Shown: positions 8,050-62,283 of the stretch, piece after piece
Position numbering within the stretch: the stretch's first letter is position 1
How the letters are laid out: each line of letters starts with the position of its first letter
Source: Serratia surfactantfaciens
GTDB taxonomy: Bacteria; Pseudomonadota; Gammaproteobacteria; Enterobacterales; Enterobacteriaceae
Assembly (NCBI RefSeq): GCF_001642805.2
Contig: NZ_CP016948.1
Location: 2,356,001 to 2,420,000, forward strand
Direction of reading: 5' to 3'
DNA length: 64,000 bases
The notes under the pieces: generated by a model
Told to the model about the DNA's origin: nothing
Database searches by the model: none
Seen by the model: only the letters and a program-made list of their open reading frames with translations
Translations under genes and position numbers: made by a program

Positions 8050-8721
8050 TTAAATGATGATGCGACCGTGCGCCATCGCTACCGCGCGATCGCACATGTG
8101 GTCGATGACGTCCGCATCGTGGCTGACCAGCACCATGGTCAGATCGCCCGCCTGCTTCAGCTCGTTGAGCAGATTGAGGATCTCCGCCTGTACCGACATA
8201 TCCAGCGCCGAGGTCGGCTCATCCAGCAGCAGCAGCTTCGGCCGCAACAGCAGCGCGCGCACGATCGCCACGCGCTGGCGCTGGCCACCCGACAGCTGAT
8301 GCGGATAGCGATCCAGCAGGCGCGGATCCAACCCGACCTGGCGAAATCCCGCGCTGATCTTGCGTTCGATATCGCTTTCCTGCAGCAGTTTTAGCGGCTC
8401 CGACAACGTGCGCAGCAGCCGGTGTTTGGGGTGCAGCGAAGCATAGGGATCCTGAAACACCATCTGCACTTCGCGCCGCAGTGGGCCGGTAAACGCCTGG
8501 CCCGGTTGCAGCCGCCGCCCCAACAGCTCAAAGCCGCCGCGCCAGCTGTCGTTCAGCCCGGCCAACACCCACAGCAACGAGGACTTGCCGCAGCCGGAAG
8601 GCCCCACCAGCCCGAAACACTCGCCCGGTTCGATGCGCAGGTTAACGTCATGCACCACGGTGCGCAGTTCGTATCCCTGACGATGGCTGACGCTCAGGTT
8701 ATCCAGTGCAATCACGCTCAT
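8050..8721 (-). CDS. Peptide-type ABC transporter ATP-binding protein (DppF-like, short)
   Basis: A 223-residue cytoplasmic ATPase that energises the permeases encoded upstream. Walker A GPSGCGKSS is near residue 41, Q-loop VFQDPYASLHP follows, the signature is LSGGQRQRVAIVRAL, and Walker [13 protein letters not shown] precedes the switch His in VSHDADV. At 223 residues it is about 100 shorter than DppF/OppF and ends right after the H-loop region, so the C-terminal oligo_HPY extension of that class is missing. ATG 8721 overlaps the stop of the preceding gene as ATGA, indicating translational coupling; upstream in-frame ATG at 8799 lies deep inside that gene. Confidence 0.9.
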   Translation of the reverse strand: MSVIALDNLSVSHRQGYELRTVVHDVNLRIEPGECFGLVGPSGCGKSSLLWVLAGLNDSWRGGFELLGRRLQPGQAFTGPLRREVQMVFQDPYASLHPKHRLLRTLSEPLKLLQESDIERKISAGFRQVGLDPRLLDRYPHQLSGGQRQRVAIVRALLLRPKLLLLDEPTSALDMSVQAEILNLLNELKQAGDLTMVLVSHDADVIDHMCDRAVAMAHGRIII

Positions 8722-51599: not shown

Positions 51600-52085
51600 A
51601 TGTCTCAGAACTCCCTTCCGGCAGCACCGAAACGCCCCCTTCTGGTCATCCTGCTGGTGTTGATCAGCGTCGTCGCCTGTGGCGCCGCGGGTTACAGCTG
51701 GTGGCTGCTGCAACAGCATAAAAACGGCGCCGAACCGGCCGCCGTCAAAGAACAACCGCCGGCGGCGCCGGTGTTCATGCCGCTCGACACCTTTACCGTC
51801 AATCTGGTGACGCCGGACAACAACCCGGATCGCGTGCTGTACATCGGCCTCACGCTGCGTCTGCCGGACGAAAGTACCCGCCGTCAGCTGAACGATTTTC
51901 TGCCGGAAGTGCGCAGCCGTCTGCTGATGCTGCTTTCCCGCCAGGAAGCGAGCCAGCTGGCCAATGAACAAGGGAAGCAACAGTTGGTGGCGCAGATTAA
52001 GGATGTGCTCAGCCCGCCGCTGGTTAAGGGACAACCGAAGCAGGTGGTCAGCGACGTGCTGTTCACCGCCTTCATACTGCGGTAA
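51600..52085 (+). CDS. fliL: Flagellar basal-body protein FliL
   Basis: FliL is a single-pass membrane protein around the stator. The 161-residue protein has one helix ([22 protein letters not shown]) and a periplasmic stomatin-like domain with [21 protein letters not shown] and the C-terminal [12 protein letters not shown]. The start is uncertain: ATG 51600, with AGGA about 13 bases upstream, or TTG 51594. A 165-base gap after fliK suggests a separate or internal promoter. Confidence 0.94.
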
Positions 52086-52090
52086 TCACT

Positions 52091-53095
52091 ATGGGCGATA
52101 GCATTCTTTCACAGGCAGAGATCGACGCCTTGCTCAACGGCGACAGCGCGGGTGACGAACCCGAAGCGGTGGTCGGCAAAGAGAGCGAGGTCAAGCCTTA
52201 CGATCCGAACACCCAGCGCCGAGTGGTGCGCGAGCGTCTGCACGCGCTGGAAATCATCAACGAACGTTTTGCCCGGCAGTTCCGCATGGGATTGTTCAAC
52301 CTGCTGCGCCGCAGCCCGGACATCACCGTCGGCCCGATCAAAATCCAGCCGTATCACGAGTTCGCCCGCAATCTGCCGGTGCCGACCAACCTGAACCTGG
52401 TGCATCTGAACCCGCTGCGCGGCACCGCTCTGTTCGTGTTCGCGCCGAGCCTGGTGTTCATCGCCGTCGACAACCTGTTCGGCGGCGACGGCCGCTTCCC
52501 GACCAAGGTCGAAGGCCGCGAGTTCACCCCGACCGAACAGCGGGTGATCAAGCGCATGCTGCGCCTGGCGCTGGACGCCTACGGCGACGCCTGGAGCGCC
52601 ATTTACAAGATCGACGTGGAATACGTGCGCGCCGAAATGCAGGTGAAGTTCACCAATATCACCACCTCGCCGAACGATATCGTGGTCACCACGCCGTTCC
52701 AGGTGGAGATCGGCGCGCTGACCGGCGAATTCAACATCTGCATTCCCTTCGCGATGATCGAACCGCTGCGCGAGCTGCTGACCAACCCACCGCTGGAAAA
52801 CTCGCGGCAGGAAGACAGCCACTGGCGCGAAACGCTGGTGAAGCAGGTGCAGCACTCCGAACTGGAGCTGATCGCCAACTTCGTCGATATCCCGATGCGG
52901 CTGTCGAAAGTCCTGAAGCTGCAACCGGGCGATGTACTACCGATAGACAAGCCGGAACGCCTGATCGCCCATGTGGACGGCGTACCGGTTCTGACCAGCC
53001 AATACGGCACGTTGAACGGGCAATACGCCCTGCGTGTTGAACATTTGATTAACCCTATTTTGAATGCTCTGAGTGAGGAACAGCCCAATGAGTGA
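52091..53095 (+). CDS. fliM: Flagellar motor switch protein FliM
   Basis: FliM is the CheY-P receptor in the C ring. The 334-residue protein has the N-terminal CheY-binding motif SILSQAEIDALLNG, the middle CheC-like domain (FRMGLFNLLRRSPDI, VFIAVDNLFGG) and the C-terminal SpoA domain (LKLQPGDVLPI). It follows fliL after 5 bases. Confidence 0.97.
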   Translation: MGDSILSQAEIDALLNGDSAGDEPEAVVGKESEVKPYDPNTQRRVVRERLHALEIINERFARQFRMGLFNLLRRSPDITVGPIKIQPYHEFARNLPVPTNLNLVHLNPLRGTALFVFAPSLVFIAVDNLFGGDGRFPTKVEGREFTPTEQRVIKRMLRLALDAYGDAWSAIYKIDVEYVRAEMQVKFTNITTSPNDIVVTTPFQVEIGALTGEFNICIPFAMIEPLRELLTNPPLENSRQEDSHWRETLVKQVQHSELELIANFVDIPMRLSKVLKLQPGDVLPIDKPERLIAHVDGVPVLTSQYGTLNGQYALRVEHLINPILNALSEEQPNE

Positions 53096-53504
53096 TCCTA
53101 AGCAACCGTCTGGCGAAGGAAAGGAATCCGTGGACGATCTGTGGGCTGATGCGTTTAACGAGCAGCAGTCCTCAGAGAAATCCGGCGCGAGCACCGAAGG
53201 GGTGTTCAAGTCGCTGGAGGCTCAGGATGCGCTCGGCAGCCTGCAGGATATCGACCTGATCCTGGATATTCCGGTCAAGCTGACCGTGGAACTGGGGCGC
53301 ACCAAGATGACTATCAAAGAGTTGCTGCGCCTGTCGCAGGGCTCGGTGGTGGCGCTGGACGGCCTGGCCGGCGAACCGCTGGACATCCTGATCAACGGTT
53401 ACCTGATCGCACAAGGTGAAGTGGTGGTGGTGGCCGACAAGTTCGGCGTGCGCATCACCGACATCATCACCCCGTCCGAACGCATGCGTCGACTGAGCCG
53501 CTGA
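53088..53504 (+). CDS. fliN: Flagellar motor switch protein FliN
   Basis: FliN forms the lower C ring with FliM and binds FliH. The 138-residue protein has an acidic/variable N-terminus and the SpoA domain ([33 protein letters not shown] in segments; [17 protein letters not shown]). The start overlaps fliM by 8 bases. Confidence 0.96.
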
Positions 53505-53908
53505 TGACCGCCGCCGCGCCCGTTACCGTGCAAAGCACCCAACAACCCGCCGCGCCGGCCCTGCCGGCCGGTTCGGTGTTGATGCAGGTCAGCAGCGCGC
53601 TCGGCGGCATTCTGCTGCTGATCCTGCTGGCCGGTTGGCTGTTCCGTCGGCTGGGGTTCGCCCCGCAGGCGCGCAACAACAAACTGCTCAACCTGCGCGC
53701 CAGTTGCCAGGTCGGGCAGCGCGAGCGCGTGGTGGTGGTGGAAGTCGACGACACCCTGCTGGTCTTGGGCGTCACCGCCCAGCAGATCACCCCGCTGCAC
53801 ACCCTGCCCGCCCCGCCGAAAGACGAAGGCGAGACCAACGCGGCAACACCGGCGGACTTCCGCCAACTGATGCAAAAAGTTCTGAAACGCCCGGAAAAAT
53901 CGGCATGA
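53504..53908 (+). CDS. fliO: Flagellar export protein FliO
   Basis: FliO is a single-pass membrane protein that assists FliP assembly. The 134-residue protein has one helix ([22 protein letters not shown], about 31-52) and a small C-terminal cytoplasmic domain ([25 protein letters not shown]). Start overlaps fliN as TGATG. Confidence 0.92.
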
Positions 53909-54666
53909 CCTCGACTCTTCATACCCTCGTCCGCCGTCCGGCGGTTTGGCTCCCTGCCGCCCTGCTGCTGATCAGCCCGGCGGCTTTTGCACAACTGCCG
54001 GGGCTGATCAGCCAGCCGCTGGCCAACGGCGGCCAAAGCTGGTCGCTGCCGGTGCAGACGCTGGTGCTGTTGACCTCGCTGACCTTCTTGCCCGCCATGT
54101 TGCTGATGATGACCAGCTTCACCCGCATCATCATCGTGCTCGGGCTGCTGCGCAATGCGCTGGGCACGCCGTCAGCGCCGCCGAACCAGGTGATGCTGGG
54201 GCTGGCGCTGTTCCTGACCTTCTTCATCATGTCGCCGGTGTTCGACAAGGTCTATCAGGACGCCTACCTGCCGTTCAGCCAGGACAAGATCGGACTGGAG
54301 GTCGCGCTGGATAAAGGCGCGCAGCCGCTGCGCGAATTCATGCTGCGCCAAACGCGCGAAACCGATCTCGCGCTGTACGCCAGGCTGGCCAATCAGCCCC
54401 CGCTGGCCGGCCCGGAAGCGGTGCCGATGCGCATCTTGCTGCCCGCCTACGTCACCAGCGAACTGAAAACCGCCTTCCAGATCGGCTTTACGGTGTTTAT
54501 TCCGTTCCTGATTATCGATCTGGTGGTCGCCAGCGTATTGATGGCGCTGGGGATGATGATGGTGCCGCCGGCGACCATCTCGCTACCGTTCAAGCTGATG
54601 CTGTTCGTGCTGGTCGATGGCTGGCAGCTGCTGCTCGGCTCGCTGGCGCAGAGCTTCTATTCGTAA
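53905..54666 (+). CDS. fliP: Flagellar export gate protein FliP
   Basis: A core export-gate subunit. The 253-residue protein has a signal-peptide-like start ([14 protein letters not shown]), then FliP signatures: [42 protein letters not shown] in segments and [21 protein letters not shown] 53905 overlaps the fliO stop as ATGA. Confidence 0.96.
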
Positions 54667-54687
54667 CCCCCGACCGGAGAAAGCGAG

Positions 54688-54957
54688 ATGACACCTGAAT
54701 CGGTTATGGCGCTCGGCACCGAGGCGATGAAAGTGGCGCTGGCGCTGGCCGCCCCGCTGCTGCTGGCAGCGCTCATCAGCGGCCTGGTAGTCAGCCTGCT
54801 GCAGGCCGCCACCCAGATCAACGAAATGACGCTGTCGTTCATCCCCAAAATTCTGGCGGTGGTGGCCACCATCATCATCGCCGGCCCCTGGATGCTGAAC
54901 CTGTTGCTGGACTACATGCGCACCCTGTTCAGCAACCTGCCTACCCTGATCGGCTGA
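54688..54957 (+). CDS. fliQ: Flagellar export gate protein FliQ
   Basis: An 89-residue, two-helix export-gate subunit with [23 protein letters not shown] and a second helix [20 protein letters not shown]. It follows fliP after 21 bases with GGAG upstream. Confidence 0.97.
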
Positions 54958-54959
54958 CC

Positions 54960-55742
54960 GTGCTCACTTTCGACAGCGCCCAGCTCACCGTCTGGCTCAG
55001 CCACTATTTTTGGCCGCTGCTGCGCATTCTGGCACTGATCAGCACCGCGCCGATATTCAGCGAAAAGCAAATCAGCAAAAAGGTCAAAATCGGCCTTGGC
55101 GGGCTGATCGTCATCCTGATCGCGCCGACGCTGCCTGCCAGCAATATTCCGATCTTCTCCGCTGCCGGCCTGTGGCTGGCGATTCAACAGATTCTGATCG
55201 GCGTGGCGCTGGGGTTGACCATGCAGTTCGCCTTCGCGGCGGTGCGCCTGGCGGGCGAAGTGATCGGCATGCAGATGGGCCTGTCGTTCGCCACCTTCTT
55301 CGATCCCAGCGGAGGCCCGAACATGCCGGTGCTGGCGCGCCTGCTCAATCTGCTGGCGATGCTGCTGTTCCTCAGCTTCAACGGCCATCTGTGGCTGATT
55401 TCGCTGCTGGCTGACAGCTTCCACACCCTGCCTATCCAAACGCAGCCGCTGAACGGCAACGGCTTCCTGGTGCTGACCCAGGTCGGATCGCTGATCTTCA
55501 TCAATGGCATGATGCTGGCGCTGCCGCTGATCTGCCTGCTGTTAACGCTGAACATGGCGCTCGGGCTGCTCAACCGCATGACGCCGCAGCTGTCGGTGTT
55601 CGTGATCGGCTTCCCGGTCACCATGACCTTCGGCATCATGACGCTGGGCATGATGATGCCGATGCTGGCGCCATTCTGCGAGCACCTGTTTGGTGAGATA
55701 TTCGATCGTCTGGCGGCGGTGATCGGCGGCATGACCTTCTGA
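54960..55742 (+). CDS. fliR: Flagellar export gate protein FliR
   Basis: The 260-residue, multi-helix FliR completes the FliP-FliQ-FliR gate. It has [31 protein letters not shown] and ASNIPI-type segments, [21 protein letters not shown] near the end. It starts with GTG at 54960, two bases after the fliQ stop. Last gene of the fliF operon. Confidence 0.96.
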
Positions 55743-56094
55743 ATCCGCCTCCTCCTTCCTTCCCCCCCTTTTGCCTGAGACAAAATGGCAATAAAACCGT
55801 TTTATTGGGACAAAAGCCTGAGAAACGCCTTTTATCCGGATTAAGGTTCAAATGTCTCCGGCGGCTTGAATAAATAAAACCCCGACCTAGAATAGACCCG
55901 GTAACAAGAAAACATCGCCTCCCCGTTAGCCATCGGCGGCGATAAAAACGCTTACTCCTCAGCGAAAATAAAAAATAACGCAGTCACGCAGAGTTAAATG
56001 CGCGACAGATAACTTACACCCTGAATAAATGCGTCCGGCAGCCTGCCGGCTGCAGGGCGCAGCATCGACCTTTGCTAACCACAGGAGCGAGATC
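55743..56094. other. Intergenic region after fliR
   Basis: About 350 bases between fliR and the small plus-strand frames. It carries a perfect short inverted repeat AATAAAAC-C-GTTTTATT (55790-55806) and an ATCGCC/GGCGAT hairpin (55914-55943). I see no gene. E. coli has rcsA in this position; it is absent here. Confidence 0.5.
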
Positions 56095-56229
56095 ATGATT
56101 AAAGCGAAAAGCAACCGCAAGGCACGCCGATTATTCGGCTTGACCCACTGGAAAAGCAACAAGTTTAGAGTTTCCTTCACCGAGACCAGCGATGGCGGAA
56201 AATGGAAAGTGGTGAAGAAAAAGAAATAA
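56095..56229 (+). CDS. Small basic protein (44 aa), unknown
   Basis: A 44-residue Lys/Arg-rich frame beginning MIKAKSNRKARRLFGLTHW and ending VVKKKK, with a Shine-Dalgarno AGGAG eight bases before ATG 56095. No membrane segment or signal. It could be a small nucleic-acid-binding protein, or part of the microcin-like locus further on. I do not recognise a family; its reality rests on the ribosome site and codon pattern. Confidence 0.5.
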   Translation: MIKAKSNRKARRLFGLTHWKSNKFRVSFTETSDGGKWKVVKKKK

Positions 56230-56569
56230 TCACGCAGGACCTGTAGCAAAAATTCCGGGTTGCGCCCCTATCCGGCTTCTGCAACGTCATTCGACGCGGC
56301 GCCGCATCGGCAGCCCGGGACCCACACTCATCACTCGCCGGCAAACCGTGCCGGTGTACTTTATTCTTAGGAAGGGAATAACGCGCCACATCACCCTGGC
56401 TGCTGCGTTAAATTTAAAAATAATGTATTAATGATTTAATTTACTCACACCCCTTATTTATTCACTGACAAGAAAAATCGATTTCCCACCTTATTTCCCC
56501 AGCGTTATATTGAAAACAACCTTGCTACCAGTACGCAGCAAGCCTCACTAAAATATAAACGGTGTAAAT
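56230..56569. other. AT-rich gap upstream of the microcin-like locus
   Basis: About 340 bases; from 56400 to 56570 strongly AT-rich in contrast with the flagellar genes around it. It should hold the promoter of the two following genes. I could not find a convincing sigma-70 pair. No gene recognised. Confidence 0.45.
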
Positions 56570-56836
56570 ATGAAGATAAAGTTTCAGCTGAGTGATTTAT
56601 TCATCAGCGGCATCGCCCTTTTGATCATGAGCACTATTTTAAATACGCTGGGTTTTTCCTGGGGTTTATTTGCTCTGCCGCCTGGCGTCGATAGTTTTGT
56701 CATCATCCCGTTTACCTTATTTGGCTCATTGAAGTTGGCCGAGTGCCTCTATAAGCCAATACGCTGGCTGCTAAATGAGAGCCGCAAATCTCAAATCGAA
56801 AATAACAACCCTAAAAATAACGCTAAGTCGCGTTAA
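56570..56836 (+). CDS. Two-helix membrane protein, candidate microcin immunity protein
   Basis: An 88-residue protein with two predicted membrane helices (about residues 10-32, ISGIALLIMSTILNTLGF, and 42-60, SFVIIPFTLFGSLKLAE), then a basic, Asn/Lys-rich cytoplasmic tail. Low GC compared with neighbours. It lies 14 bases upstream of a gene encoding a microcin-like peptide, so a role as immunity protein is inferred from position and architecture (small, two or three helices, basic tail), not from homology. Ribosome site is weak (GGTG). Confidence 0.6.
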   Translation: MKIKFQLSDLFISGIALLIMSTILNTLGFSWGLFALPPGVDSFVIIPFTLFGSLKLAECLYKPIRWLLNESRKSQIENNNPKNNAKSR

Positions 56837-56850
56837 CAGGAGATCGACCT

Positions 56851-57177
56851 ATGCTGAGAGAACTGACCAGAGAAGAAATGCAACGGATTGGCGGCGCCGG
56901 TGACGGCAATAACGGCGGCGACCGGGATCGCGACTATGGCCCAAGCTCCTACGGCGCGCAGGCGAACGGCTTCCAGCCTAATTGGGCGGCGAAAGGCTAT
57001 GGGCTATTTCAGGATCCTTGTACCGGCGCGGTGGTGACCGGCGCCATTGCCATGGCCGGCGCCCTGGCCAGCCGTAACGGCAGTGCGATTAGCACCGCGG
57101 CGGCCTCAGCCTTTGTCAACATAGGCGGTCAATGCACTAAAGGGTCCGGCAACGATCGCGGCGTGCCTTTCCGCTAA
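56851..57177 (+). CDS. Candidate class II microcin precursor with double-glycine leader
   Basis: A 108-residue precursor. The start MLRELTREEMQRIGG is a double-glycine leader, closely like that of microcin N (RELxREE...GGAGD), with predicted cleavage after Gly15 to give a 93-residue mature peptide beginning AGDG. The mature part has an Asn/Gly/Asp-rich hydrophilic front, then from about residue 57 a hydrophobic Gly/Ala-rich segment (GAVVTGAIAMAGALA...ISTAAASAFVNIGG) bounded by Cys57 and Cys95, possibly disulfide-linked. AGGAG eight bases before ATG 56851 is strong. No CvaA/CvaB-type exporter lies in the window; export would need a system elsewhere. Confidence 0.7.
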   Translation: MLRELTREEMQRIGGAGDGNNGGDRDRDYGPSSYGAQANGFQPNWAAKGYGLFQDPCTGAVVTGAIAMAGALASRNGSAISTAAASAFVNIGGQCTKGSGNDRGVPFR

Positions 57178-57213
57178 CGCGTAAGCTGAATGAGGAAAAC
57201 GCAGACAAAAAAA

Positions 57214-57324
57214 GGCGCGTCGCTCAGTCAGTAGTGGGAGAACGAACGACGCGCCAAACGAGTGCGCCCGGTTTCAAGAAGCCTCCCTCCCCGCGGGGCG
57301 GAGAGGGCATTTTCTAAGCGCACT
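57214..57324. other. Structured convergent gap between microcin-like gene and flgL
   Basis: Contains a 9-bp inverted repeat GGCGCGTCG/CGACGCGCC (57214-57222 with 57247-57255) and a nested element with arms AGTGCGC/GCGCACT (57261-57267 with 57318-57324) around a CCCC-GC-GGGG core. Both strands would form strong hairpins; likely terminators of the convergent transcripts, though no T-run follows. Confidence 0.5.
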
Positions 57325-57364
57325 AAAGGGAAACCCGTCGCGGTCAGGCAACGGGGTATTGCTC

Positions 57365-58324
57365 TTAACGATTCATCTGGAACAGCGACATGCCCTGCAT
57401 ATCGCTGAAGGTTTTGTACGACGCCTGCAGCGCCGCCTGCTGCATGAAGTAAGACGAGATAGACTCGGCCAAGTCGGCATCCGTCAACGCGCTCATCTGG
57501 ATCTGGTTGGTCATGTCACGCTCTTTACCGATGCTGTCCAGCTGATCCATCTCCTGCAGCTGGCTGCCCAGCTCGGCACGCACGCTCAACACGTTGTTGT
57601 AGGAGTTGTCCAGGCCGCGGTTGGCTTTCGCCAACGCATCGTTCACCTGCTGTTTGGTAGCCTCGTCGGCGCCCTGCAGCGGCGTTTTCAGCGCATTCAG
57701 CGCGATGTCGATGCTCTCGAAAACGTTGCTGACCGGCGCGCTGCCGTCCGGCTCAGGCTTCGGGTTGCTGGTCAATGACATGAACACCGCGTTGCCGGTA
57801 TGGCCGATGGTCATGGTGCGGTTGGCGTCCACTTTCTGCTCAACCGTCTTGTCGCCCCCCTGATAGCTGACGGTGCCGCCGTTGTCGACGAACGGCGCCT
57901 TGTCGTTCACGTATCCGCCGAACATATAGCGGCCGTTGCCGTCGGTGCTGTTGGCCTGGTTCAGCAGCTGATCTTTCAGCCCCTGCAGTTGGGTGGCCAA
58001 CGACTGGCGGTCGTTATCGCTTTCGGTGCCGCCGGCATTGACGATCAGCGCCTTCATGTCCGCGATGGTGGAGGTCGCGCCGGCCAAGACCGTTTCTTCC
58101 ATCGACACGCTCTGACGCGCGAAGGTGCGCGCCAGCGTGTATTGGCTGTTTTCCGCCTGCGATTGCGACAACATCACCGCGCGCGACGCCGCCAGCGGAT
58201 CGTCGGACGGGTTGATCACCCGCTTGCCGGAGGAAAGCTGCTCGGCGGCCTTCATGAACAGCGACTGGTTGCCCGTGATGCCGCTCATGTTCTGTTGGTA
58301 CATCATGCTGGTGCTCATGCGCAT
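57365..58324 (-). CDS. flgL: Hook-filament junction protein FlgL (HAP3)
   Basis: FlgL joins the hook to the filament next to FlgK. The 319-residue protein starts RMSTSMMYQQNM and shares SSGKRVINPSDDPLAASRAV, NGRYMFGGY and the C-terminal SYFMQQAALQASYKTFSDMQGMSLF in segments with enteric FlgL. ATG 58324 corresponds to the E. coli start. It follows flgK after 58 bases. Confidence 0.96.
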   Translation of the reverse strand: MRMSTSMMYQQNMSGITGNQSLFMKAAEQLSSGKRVINPSDDPLAASRAVMLSQSQAENSQYTLARTFARQSVSMEETVLAGATSTIADMKALIVNAGGTESDNDRQSLATQLQGLKDQLLNQANSTDGNGRYMFGGYVNDKAPFVDNGGTVSYQGGDKTVEQKVDANRTMTIGHTGNAVFMSLTSNPKPEPDGSAPVSNVFESIDIALNALKTPLQGADEATKQQVNDALAKANRGLDNSYNNVLSVRAELGSQLQEMDQLDSIGKERDMTNQIQMSALTDADLAESISSYFMQQAALQASYKTFSDMQGMSLFQMNR

Positions 58325-58382
58325 GCTGTGGGTTCCTTACTCTGAACGACCGGCGCTGCAACGGCGCCGGCTAACAATGAAA

Positions 58383-60032
58383 TCAACGAATATTCAGCAA
58401 CGCATCGAACAGCGAGCTGGCGGTCTGAATGACCTGCGCGTTGGCCATGTAGTACTGCTGGAAGCGCAGCAGCTCACCGTATTCTTCGTCGAGGTTAACC
58501 CCTGACAGCGATTGCTGTTGCTCACCCAGTTGCTTGACGATCTTGGCCTGCGAGGTCGCGATCGCCTTAGCGGCGGCGGTCTGGTTGCCCACGCCACTGA
58601 CGATGCCGGCGTAAGCGCCGCTCAGGGTCGCCTTACCGTCCACCAGATTCTTGGTTTGCAGATCCAGCAGCTTCTTGGCGTTTTCGTTATCGCCGCGGCC
58701 GCTGTCGTCTTTACCGGCGGCGGCGATCTTGGACGAGTCGGTGATGGCGACTTTCAGGTTGCCCGCCACGTCGCTGACCGGCTTCACGGTGAAGCTGTCT
58801 TTGGCTTTCGCATTGCCGTCGATGCTCACTTCCAGGCCGTCGAAGTTCAGCGTCGGTTTGCCGTCGGCACTGGTGCCCGGCGTGGCGTTGACTTTTACGT
58901 TGTCCGGCAGGCGGCTGACCTGCCAGTTGCTGCCGTCGAACTCGACGCGATAATCGTTGGCCTTCACTTTGCCGGTGTCGGTGTAAGCCACCGACAGCGA
59001 AGCGTCGCCGGTGTTGCGGGTATTATCCACGACCCGACCGCCGCTGAAGCTGAAGAAGTCGCCGCCCGCGTCGCCGTTCAGATCGAAGCCTGCGCGATGC
59101 TGCTGGTTAAAGCTGTCCGCCATCGCCAGTGCCAACTGCCCCAGCTGATTGCGCACGCCGTCCAGCGTTTCGCTGCGGAATTTCAGCACGCCACTCAGAC
59201 TGCCGCTGGTGATTTGCCCTTCCGGCACTTCGCTGGCACCGTTGCCGCGGTTGTAACCGATAGTCAAACGGGAAGGATCGCTGCTGGAAGGCATCGCCTC
59301 CACCTGATAGGTATTGCTGCCCTGCACCAGGGTCAAACCGTTGGCGAAGGAGACGGTATACGCGTCGCCATCCTGCTGCGTGACCTGAACCCCCACCAAC
59401 TGGTTCAGCTCGGTGACCAGTTGGTCACGCTGATCCAGCAACGCGTTCGGTTCACCGGCGGCGCTGCCGCGCAGGCGGGTGATCTCGTCATTCAGCTTGG
59501 CGATCTGTTGGCTGTAGCTGTTGATCTGCTGCGCCGTATCGCTGATCTGCTGATTAACGCCGCTGTCCATGTCGCGCAGGAACTTGTCGGTGTTATTGAA
59601 CTGGTTAACCAGGCCATTGGCCTTGCCCAGCACGGTCTGACGTGCGGCGTCGTCGCCGGCGTTGCTCACCAGGTTTTGCAGATTGGTGAAGAAGTCCTGC
59701 ATGTTGGCCGACAGCGGGTTGGTTTTGCTCGCCAACAGATTGTCGATCTGCGAAATCTTCTCGTAATAGGCGTTTTGCGCCCCGAACGCGCTCTGTGAAC
59801 TGCGCAGCTGATTGGTGATGAACTGGTTGTATTCACGGTTGACGCTGGTGACGGTCACGCCGTTGCCGATGAAGCCGCTCATGGTGGCCATGCCGCCATT
59901 CTGCGCCAAGATCGCAGTCTGGCGGTTGTAGCCCGCCACGTTATAGTTGGAGATGTTGTTGCTGACGGTACTGAGCGCCACCTGAGCCGCATTCAGCCCG
60001 CTCATCGCGGTATTGATTAAGCTATTGGACAT
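58383..60032 (-). CDS. flgK: Hook-associated protein FlgK (HAP1)
   Basis: The first hook-filament junction protein, 549 residues. The N-terminal flagellar-rod motif SLINTAMSGLNAAQVALSTVSNNISNYNVAGYNRQ in segments and the C-terminal EEYGELLRFQQYYMANAQVIQTASSLFDALL in segments are conserved. Transcribed from a sigma-28 promoter 82-108 bases upstream. Confidence 0.97.
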   Translation of the reverse strand: MSNSLINTAMSGLNAAQVALSTVSNNISNYNVAGYNRQTAILAQNGGMATMSGFIGNGVTVTSVNREYNQFITNQLRSSQSAFGAQNAYYEKISQIDNLLASKTNPLSANMQDFFTNLQNLVSNAGDDAARQTVLGKANGLVNQFNNTDKFLRDMDSGVNQQISDTAQQINSYSQQIAKLNDEITRLRGSAAGEPNALLDQRDQLVTELNQLVGVQVTQQDGDAYTVSFANGLTLVQGSNTYQVEAMPSSSDPSRLTIGYNRGNGASEVPEGQITSGSLSGVLKFRSETLDGVRNQLGQLALAMADSFNQQHRAGFDLNGDAGGDFFSFSGGRVVDNTRNTGDASLSVAYTDTGKVKANDYRVEFDGSNWQVSRLPDNVKVNATPGTSADGKPTLNFDGLEVSIDGNAKAKDSFTVKPVSDVAGNLKVAITDSSKIAAAGKDDSGRGDNENAKKLLDLQTKNLVDGKATLSGAYAGIVSGVGNQTAAAKAIATSQAKIVKQLGEQQQSLSGVNLDEEYGELLRFQQYYMANAQVIQTASSLFDALLNIR

Positions 60033-60113
60033 CGGAATTCCTTATGCTGCGGCGCCGGTGGCCCACAGAGTTCTTAATTGAGCTGCTGAGCCTGTTCGCT
60101 CAGCCTGTCTCGG

Positions 60114-60140
60114 TTATCGGCCAAAATGGGAAGAACTTGA
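60114..60140 (-). promoter_or_regulatory. Sigma-28 promoter of flgKL
   Basis: On the minus strand TCAAGTTC (60140-60133), an 11-base spacer and perfect GCCGATAA (60121-60114). The -10 box matches fully, the -35 at 6 of 8 positions. A stem CTGAGC/GCTCAG (about 60085-60102) lies in the predicted leader. Confidence 0.85.
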
Positions 60141-60238
60141 GGAAAAAAAGCGGCAACGCGCTCAGCATCCAGCTAGCCTTCGTTACCGCCTATCCCCTAA
60201 ATAATTGGCGCCGCTGCGGCGTCAAGAATGACGGGGAT

Positions 60239-61183
60239 TTAGAACAAATCTTTCAGATCGTGGGTATAAGCTTTGACCGCCTGTTCCCCGGCGTTCTTCA
60301 TCTGCTGAATCACGCTGACCAGTTTGCTGGCGTACTGCGGGTCGGTGGCATAACCGGCGCGCTGCAGCGCATGTGCCGCCTGTTCCGGGCTGCGCGCGGC
60401 GGCCACGTCGGCGTAGCGCGGGTTGTTGGTCAACAGCTTGACGTAATCGGCGATCGCTTCGACGTACGAGCCGTAAACGCGGAACTTCGCCTTCACCTTC
60501 TTCGCGGCGCCCTGCTCAAACTCGGTGGTGGTGATCTCCGTCACCGGCCCATTCCAGCTGCCGCCGGCCTTGATGCCGAACAGGTTGTAGCTCGGCGTGC
60601 CGTCAGAAGTCGGGATCTCGCGCTGCCCCCAGCCGGACTCCAGCGCCGCCTGCGCGACAATCAGCTGATGCGGAATACCGCTCTGCTGGCTGGCGACCTT
60701 CGCCGGGATCGACAGACGGGCGACGAAGTTGCCGTTGTTGAGCGACAGCGGCGCGGCGGCCGGCGGCGCTTTCGGCATCGCCCGGCGCACCATCTGCTCC
60801 AGCGCCTGATTCGGCAGCGTTTGCAGCACCTCGTTGTCCAGCGCCATCGGCGACAAGCCCGCCGTTTCGCTCGGCACCGTATTGGCGTTGCTCATCTGCT
60901 TGACCATCATGTCGGCCAGCCCCAGCCCTTTTTGCGACATCTGCTGGGCGATTTGCTGGTCGTACATCGAGGTATAAAGCCGCGTTTGATCGCTGCTTAA
61001 TACCCCGTCCTGTGGCAAGGCAGAACGCATGCTTTTCAGCATCATCTGCACGAACATGCCTTCCACCTGCTGCGCCACCTGCTTGAGGTTGCCCTGCGGA
61101 TCGGCCGCCGCGTCGCGCTTCAGGCCGTTCAGCGCCTGGGCGTCATAGGCCGCGCCCGACATCGCCATCAGATCGCCGGCCAT
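60239..61183 (-). CDS. flgJ: Flagellar rod cap / peptidoglycan hydrolase FlgJ
   Basis: A two-domain periplasmic protein, 314 residues. The N-terminal rod-cap domain (KQVAQQVEGMFVQMMLKSMRSALPQDG in segments, QQIAQQM) and the C-terminal GH73 glucosaminidase-like domain (IVAQAALESGWGQRE with the catalytic Glu, PSYNLFGIKAGGSW, RVYGSYVEAIADYV) are both present. ATG 61183 shares one base with the flgI stop; the frame continues upstream inside flgI without support. Confidence 0.95.
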   Translation of the reverse strand: MAGDLMAMSGAAYDAQALNGLKRDAAADPQGNLKQVAQQVEGMFVQMMLKSMRSALPQDGVLSSDQTRLYTSMYDQQIAQQMSQKGLGLADMMVKQMSNANTVPSETAGLSPMALDNEVLQTLPNQALEQMVRRAMPKAPPAAAPLSLNNGNFVARLSIPAKVASQQSGIPHQLIVAQAALESGWGQREIPTSDGTPSYNLFGIKAGGSWNGPVTEITTTEFEQGAAKKVKAKFRVYGSYVEAIADYVKLLTNNPRYADVAAARSPEQAAHALQRAGYATDPQYASKLVSVIQQMKNAGEQAVKAYTHDLKDLF

Positions 61184-62283
61184 CAGATGATTTCCAGCTT
61201 GGCGCGCAGGCAGCCAGCGCTCTGCATCGCCTGCAGGATCGACATCAGATCGATCGGCGTGGCGCCCAGCGCATTCAGCGCGCGGATCACGTTGTTCAGG
61301 TTGGCGCTGGCGTTCACCTTCTGCAGCGACCCACCCTGCTGTTGCACCGAGATCTGGGTGTTTGGCGTCACCACCGTCTGGCCGCCGCCGAACGGCGTCG
61401 TCGGCTGGCTGACGGTGTTCTGCCGATCGACCACCACCGACAGATTGCCCTGGGCCACGGCGCAAGAGTCGAGGATCACGTCGCGGTTCATCACTACCGA
61501 ACCGGTGCGCGAGTTGATGATCACCTTGGCGTCCATCGCACCGACGTTGACGGTGATGTTCTGAATCTCCGCCAGGAAGCGCACCTGAGAGCTGTTACCC
61601 TGCGGCACCAGCACCTGAATGGTGCGGGCGTCGAGCGGCGTCGCGGTGCCGCCGCCGCGTTGGCGGTTGATGGCGTCGCTGATCTGCTGCGCCAACGTGA
61701 AATCTTCGTCGTTCAACTGCAGATTGAGCACCCCGCCGCTGCCGAAGGTGGTCGGCAGCTCGCGCTCGATGGTGGCGCCGTTGCTGATGCGCCCGCCCGC
61801 CAGCTGATTGACCTGCACGCTGCTGCCGCCGGCCGCCGCGCCCGCACCGCCGACCAGCACGTTGCCCTGCGCCAGCGCATAGACCTGGTTATCCACGCCT
61901 TTAAGCGGCGTCATCAGCAGGGTGCCGCCGCGCAGGCTCTTGGCGTTGCCCATCGAAGAAACCACCACGTCGATGTTCTGCCCGGCGCGCGAGAACGGCG
62001 GCAGTTTGGCGGTCACCATCACCGCCGCCACGTTTTTCAGCTGCATGTTGGTGCCCGGCGGCACGGTGATGCCCAGCTGCGACAACATGTTGCTCAGGCT
62101 CTGGGTGGTGAACGGCGTCTGCATGGTCTGGTCGCCGGAGCCGTCCAGCCCCACCACCAGGCCGTAGCCAATCAGGGCGTTGTCTCGCACGCCCTGCACC
62201 GTCACCAGATCGCGGATGCGCTCCGCCGCCGCCGGCAAGCACACCAGCCCGACGCACAGCGCGATAAACCATTTTTTCAGCAT
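61183..62283 (-). CDS. flgI: Flagellar P-ring protein FlgI
   Basis: FlgI forms the P ring in the peptidoglycan layer. The 366-residue protein has a signal peptide ([19 protein letters not shown]), the family start [30 protein letters not shown] in segments, and the end [38 protein letters not shown] in segments. It lies 10 bases after flgH. Confidence 0.97.

Follow-up and report, generated by a model that had tools for sequence, protein, structure and literature searches.

Two small genes lying between fliR and flgL in Serratia surfactantfaciens probably (with a likelihood that we put at about 80%) form an exporterless class II microcin cassette, the product of which would be exported in trans and the upstream member of which is a putative immunity gene. 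The pair lies in a stretch of 64,000 nucleotides (NZ_CP016948.1, positions 2,356,001 to 2,420,000 of the forward strand), here called the window, and positions given below without further label refer to it. The original prediction of a class II microcin with an immunity gene is supported by the leader, size and composition of the peptide, by the paired gene for a two-helix protein, by the relatives of the peptide and by the presence in the same genome of three C39/HlyD exporters.

The cassette and its setting

The genes fliR (ending at 55742) and flgL (minus strand, ending at 57365) flank three plus-strand frames: sra, a frame of 88 amino acids (aa) and a frame of 108 aa. The product of sra (56095-56229), the stationary-phase-induced ribosome-associated protein, was recognised by model NF007473 (63 bits; cut-off 35). 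The putative immunity protein of 88 aa, with two hydrophobic segments and a basic tail, is encoded at 56570-56836 and the putative class II microcin precursor of 108 aa, for which homologues and relatives in or near exporter clusters were found, at 56851-57177; the frames and the 14 bases between them are as first described. From the sequence, the peptide gene has a ribosome-binding site, AGGAG, at 56838-56842 (plus strand), 8 bases before the ATG. Just to the right of the inserted cassette the minus strand carries an inverted repeat and, after it, a run of T (57214-57255). This is probably the flgL terminator; it is kept in the aligned genomes with an empty site, and owing to its long loop it is absent from the terminator scan.

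The upstream gene had been described as AT-richer and indeed has a G+C content of 42.7%; the peptide gene is at 62.7% and the window as a whole at 59.4%. This contrast between the two genes was left out of the argument for immunity. As was also claimed, there is no exporter next door among the frames of window positions 52000-62000. The cassette is chromosomal, on a single contig of 5.1 Mb, and the nearest C39 transporter is some 173 kb away. No modification gene was recognised among the frames adjoining the cassette. A promoter scan gave one promoter-like site at the cassette, a count no higher than in shuffled sequence, and no convincing Fur box was seen, the best match in the upstream region (12/19) being beaten at seven other places in the window.

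The peptide

The double-glycine leader on which the prediction was built is present. The peptide starts with MLRELTREEMQRIGG followed by AGD, MLRELTREEMQRIGG being a leader of 15 residues (56851-56895, plus strand) that is recognisable both from the sequence and from a match of profile A1 to an S. plymuthica peptide described below. The leader ends in GG in six of seven aligned sequences and in SG in S. inhibens, as it also does in cluster P0011. The predicted mature part of 93 aa (56896-57174, plus strand) would have a mass of about 9.2 kDa, which falls in the class II microcin range of 5-10 kDa. It holds 18 Gly and 16 Ala, in agreement with the Gly/Ala-rich core first noted, and the two cysteines, residues 57 and 95, do flank a hydrophobic segment of the peptide. 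The C-terminus, KGSGNDRGVPFR, has no Gly/Ser-rich class IIb motif for siderophore attachment, and SG[NR]D[RP]GVPFR forms the C-terminal end of the window peptide and of six aligned homologues. AlphaFold placed helices at residues 56-73 and 77-96 with a mean pLDDT of 53, the values being 74-76 at residues 61-90 and below 50 at 8-54 and 99-108. In this low-confidence model Cys57 and Cys95 lie near the outer ends of the two predicted helices.

Neither gene of the cassette reaches a Pfam or NCBIfam cut-off and a search of solved structures gave no match at E <= 1. Assignment of the peptide to the type 2 lantibiotics was considered and rejected, the Mersacidin model (Pfam) scoring 16.8 of 27.6 bits (E 0.0058) and the lantibiotic model TIGR03893 (NCBIfam) 10.6 of 32.95 bits, both below cut-off. 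The weak Mersacidin and lichenicidin leader matches can be attributed to the general nature of the double-glycine leader. The same low specificity means that the leader type alone cannot separate a toxin from a signal, and the gene might instead encode some other C39-exported double-glycine peptide, for example a signalling peptide, and no toxin. Such a function is very unlikely for a 93-residue Gly/Ala-rich core with a two-helix gene beside it and relatives in microcin-type clusters, and the patchy gain and loss described below, usual for bacteriocins, also speaks against a signalling peptide.

The upstream two-helix protein

The 88 aa protein is most hydrophobic at residues 10-28 and 33-51 (Kyte-Doolittle peaks of 1.91 and 1.66), its pI is 9.8 and AlphaFold models it, with low confidence (mean pLDDT 60), as a pair of helices. 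In size, in its two hydrophobic peaks and in its adjacency to the peptide gene it matches the immunity genes of class II microcins, the products of which have 51-216 aa and transmembrane helices. Wherever a full-length peptide is encoded (3 of 30 genomes), this gene directly precedes the peptide gene. Comparison with the small proteins of the related clusters described below gave no clear similarity to the small membrane protein of the cluster at L004 (shuffle z 2.5; BLASTP E 0.10), and shuffle z values of 4.0 against the small protein of plasmid pSERAS01 and 6.5 against that of Yokenella.

Exporters in the same genome

It had been proposed that the prediction would fall if the genome had no C39-peptidase ABC exporter and homologues of the peptide lacked the GG leader. 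Three C39 ABC transporters were found (E 9.5e-35 or better), so that this ground for rejecting the prediction is removed. All three carry both the C39 and the ABC domain (Pfam) and HlyD adjoins each of them, which makes export in trans plausible; the outer membrane efflux family is represented in the genome by 12 OEP domain matches. The first transporter belongs to a complete cluster of microcin type, with peptide, two-helix frame, C39 ABC transporter and HlyD (L004:5276-10318; G000:C1 2831275-2836317), in which the double-glycine peptide is convergent with the transporter. Residues Cys32, His105 and Asp121, numbered as in the available text of PMC9746304, are present in this transporter. The second, at L005:5939-9787 (G000:C1 2583938-2587786), is accompanied by HlyD and a double-glycine, glycine-rich peptide of 119 aa. 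One of these systems may serve the cassette. Full-length matches to the L004 transporter reach at best 84% identity in S. plymuthica NBRC 102599 (G016) and 60% in S. inhibens S40 (G005). Serratia genomes that have no cassette likewise encode C39-type transporters, and co-occurrence of transporter and cassette therefore proves nothing.

Some further features of these loci may be recorded here. L004 holds an additional two-helix frame of 68 aa, which may be an orphan immunity gene. L005 adjoins a fimbrial usher gene, and no immunity gene was recognised at that locus. At the third locus, L006:4440-9839 (G000:C1 130439-135838), genes for a radical SAM enzyme, an aspartyl protease, HlyD and the C39 ABC transporter are consecutive, a row that we take to resemble the xye type of modified-peptide cluster.

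Related peptides and their clusters

The peptide of the window and that of L004 have a YG[AG]QANG block in common (BLASTP E = 2e-4). In S. plymuthica (G016) about 1.7 kb separate a YG[AG]QANG peptide from a C39-type transporter, and profile A1 matched the leader and YG[AG]QANG part of this peptide over 45 columns with an hhalign probability of 95.8%. S. inhibens (G005) has a broken block-bearing peptide about 1.5 kb from a C39-type transporter. A related peptide near a C39-type transporter in genome G018 is without the block and was not counted among the block-bearing relatives. Outside Serratia, a two-helix gene comes after the gene of a YGAQANG peptide in Kosakonia cowanii and K. quasisacchari, and the K. 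cowanii locus includes HlyD at a distance of about 2.7 kb. At a Yokenella regensburgei locus the two-helix gene is present, the peptide frame stops early (75 aa) and the HlyD region appears split into two open frames, of which the second has the HlyD domains; the Yokenella peptide was therefore used as a related sequence only.

A contiguous cluster of peptide, two-helix protein, C39 transporter and HlyD was found on pSERAS01, a conjugative plasmid of S. marcescens AS-1, where a Tn3 transposase gene lies on either side of it. The plasmid and L004 transporters are 93% identical, and the peptides of both clusters have the same leader. Like the cassette, the L004 and pSERAS01 clusters have the block (as YGGQANGF), cysteines around the hydrophobic part and a neighbouring two-helix gene. 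They differ from it in that the exporter is adjacent and the two-helix gene is downstream, and their peptides have a longer C-terminus and extra cysteines. A profile built from nine peptides matched four peptides in the window's genome (E <= 4e-23); all four are within the profile, and the figure is a count and no independent test.

Several other loci were seen in the course of these searches. At L025:8114-8437 and 8477-8707 (G000:C1 4912113-4912706) the window's genome encodes another exporterless double-glycine peptide (GGCGDGHNGGDRD...) and, downstream, a two-helix frame; relatives occur in genomes G005, G009, G016 and G022. The paralogous peptide of S. inhibens (L029 from about 6926; G005:C23) adjoins a stretch that, from its repeated translations, resembles a CRISPR array. 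A conjugative plasmid of S. ureilytica (L120; NZ_CP074169.1 16294-26440) encodes the same small membrane protein, WP_126502361.1, together with a C39 transporter; there is a microcin match without an annotated gene, HlyD is not among the genes listed there and blaIMI-22 is nearby.

Conservation and distribution

A protein search with the peptide gave 14 cluster representatives at E <= 0.01, and the seven that are named are from Serratia. Clusters P0001-P0004, with 116 member sequences, are of full length or nearly so, P0003 having a six-residue gap. The other 10 of the 14 (21 of the 137 member sequences) are truncated, frameshifted or internally deleted, the state of each cluster being judged from its representative sequence; many strains, therefore, manage without the toxin. 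Full-length copies of the peptide occur in S. marcescens, S. plymuthica and S. inhibens. Conservation of the 108-codon frame, the lack of which would have counted against the original prediction, was confirmed by seven aligned sequences (the window's included) that are of full length with invariant blocks.

Among 30 Serratia genomes a full-length peptide is encoded in three, namely the window's own (G000), G016 (95% identity) and G005 (63%), and the upstream gene in five (these three, G013 and G010). The S. inhibens pair sits at a different chromosomal locus, and there too the small gene comes just before that of the peptide. The partner has 71 aa, is 46% identical over 71 aligned positions, has two hydrophobic peaks and stops 28 bases ahead of the ATG of the peptide. 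The view that this partner is decayed was dropped, as the two stops are at its own C-terminal end and the frame is open and shorter. Comparison of the window's genome with S. plymuthica G016 gave a pN/pS of 0.33 for the peptide gene (13 changes) and of about 0.06 for the upstream gene (6 changes), values that are rough at so few changes. It might be supposed that the two frames are open by chance in the gap between fliR and flgL, the genes being small and matched by no family model at cut-off. Chance is an extremely improbable explanation, given the homologues from other genera, the occurrence at a second locus, the pN/pS values below 1 and the conserved pairing.

A search with profile A1 across the order matched 1 of 394 genomes, drawn from a larger group, and this was the window's own. 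Against 72,556 plasmid records the window peptide gave a single weak match (E 7e-3, 40% over 68%), to pSERAS01, and the K. quasisacchari peptide matched two plasmid records.

Insertion, probable exchange and toxin loss

The flgL gene was located in 27 of the 30 Serratia genomes. By tblastn the upstream gene of the cassette lies within 1.5 kb of flgL in 4 of the 27, and neither gene is present there in the remaining 23. Alignment from sra onward of nine genomes (four carriers and five with an empty site), with a second alignment of 15 genomes, showed that at empty sites only a short unrelated stretch separates sra from the flgL terminator. No sra was found near flgL in 5 of the 23 cassette-free genomes. 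In one genome (G020) flgL is split in two frames (L064/L065, G020:C2 4583925-4584880).

Identity to S. plymuthica G016 is 86% for fliR, 98.5% for sra, 95% for the gap that follows, 97.8% for the small gene and 96% for the peptide gene; beyond the cassette it is 82% for the gap to flgL and 83% for flgL itself. For fliM, which is further off, it is 93.5%. Since identities to G016 differ between fliR, the stretch of sra and cassette, flgL and fliM, the region is a mosaic. These figures suggest a recent exchange between species of the stretch that runs from sra through the peptide gene. Such an exchange, together with the lack of the cassette from 23 of 27 flgL neighbourhoods, argues for its recent arrival.

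Two of the four carriers at the flagellar locus have lost the toxin and retained the partner gene. G013 has an intact small gene, and of its peptide only the two termini remain, each in another frame. Most of the peptide is deleted in G010, where the small gene reads on into it and has an altered tail. These losses, the contrast of 10 broken clusters among 14 for the toxin with three partner clusters of intact core (P0016 with altered ends) and the weak promoter would all fit a cassette that is a microcin by descent and not a working weapon here, being intact but not expressed, or lacking an exporter able to accept its leader, and kept mainly for immunity to kin. We consider this unlikely, because in the window's genome the frame is intact and has a good ribosome site, the changes between the window and S. 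plymuthica favour silent sites and three exporters are encoded.

A heptanucleotide repeat in the peptide gene

Two heptanucleotide units (GGCTAT GGGCTAT) are present at 56995-57007 on the plus strand, where database variants apparently have three or six copies and a shifted frame. The tails of P0007-P0010 correspond, barring single residues, to the next reading frame of the window from 57000. Judged from protein alone, P0008 and P0010 fit one extra GGGCTAT unit and P0007 four extra, and P0009 fits a short deletion and not extra heptanucleotide units. Tandem Repeats Finder reported no array in 56200-57400, and the two-copy heptanucleotide therefore matters solely because the variants differ there.

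These variants raise the idea of a phase-variable weapon in which slippage at the repeat toggles the microcin and the separately translated immunity protein stays on, the whole being a mobile, exporter-dependent add-on spreading by recombination across fliR-sra-flgL. If this were so, populations would stay protected while toggling a costly toxin. The idea is a doubtful one; in the other broken clusters P0005, P0006 and P0012-P0014 the frame shifts are at other places, which speaks for ordinary decay. Among the matches listed, no publication on phase-variable microcins was evident from titles and abstract openings.

Proposed mode of action

Under the preferred reading, that of an exporterless microcin cassette, the 108 aa precursor would be made with its 15-residue double-glycine leader and a C39-peptidase ABC transporter encoded elsewhere would cut the leader off after Gly15. 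The 93-residue peptide would then leave through the HlyD partner and an outer membrane channel of TolC type. A precedent for sharing of this kind is provided by microcins H47 and M, described in the available text of PMC13101503 as two microcins with one export system. Outside the cell the peptide may inhibit related bacteria, probably at the inner membrane, with a Gly/Ala helical hairpin closed by a Cys57-Cys95 pair as the predicted acting part. The producer would be shielded by the 88 aa inner-membrane protein encoded just upstream. As to its history, the cassette would have been inserted between sra and flgL, recombination would move it together with sra among Serratia lineages and it would tend to lose the toxin before the partner gene.

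Comparison with known microcins

The class IIa microcins N, V and L have, in general terms, a leader style and a size like those of the window peptide. The original assignment to class IIa holds in part: it agrees with the C-terminus, which has no Gly/Ser tail of class IIb, and with the neighbourhood, in which no modification gene was recognised, and the chromosomal position is unlike that of the classical members, which are plasmid-borne. According to the available text of PMC6795089, microcins V, L and S are encoded on plasmids, in contrast to the chromosomal cassette, which does have a related cluster on plasmid pSERAS01. A relative of microcin N in Serratia was noted in 2014, SMA1574A of S. 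marcescens Db10 being 41% identical to it (PMC4117218, as far as that text is available).

The most extensive comparison is offered by Parker et al. 2026 (PMC13101503, in the part of the text available). Putative class II microcins were reported there in 1,562 of 1,621 S. marcescens assemblies (96%) and C39 transporters in all but five of the 1,562. There were 93 unique sequences, of which 17 had antibacterial activity and none a class IIb tail; the microcins bear the names SM001-SM080. The terms flagell, fliR and frameshift are absent from the main text of that paper as available, and among the matches listed the titles and abstract openings of the literature gave nothing further on this locus. 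In common with the cassette, the SM microcins have a double-glycine signal of 15-18 residues, no IIb tail and an adjacent immunity gene (PMC13101503). There are usually several per genome, and SM020 and SM064 are encoded away from the exporter cluster; an exporter in the same cluster is thus not a defining feature (PMC13101503, text as available).

The novelty of the present cassette is modest, as its kind was already published in 2026 with some members away from the exporter (PMC13101503, same text). If confirmed active, the peptide would be added to those acting against Serratia or other enterobacteria, and would open no new class. What the flagellar locus contributes to the known systems is an intact exporterless pair whose chromosomal site is defined and occurs in three states (empty, intact and without the toxin), with probable exchange between species. 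It thereby provides a clean natural series for how a microcin may borrow a distant exporter and why immunity outlives the toxin.
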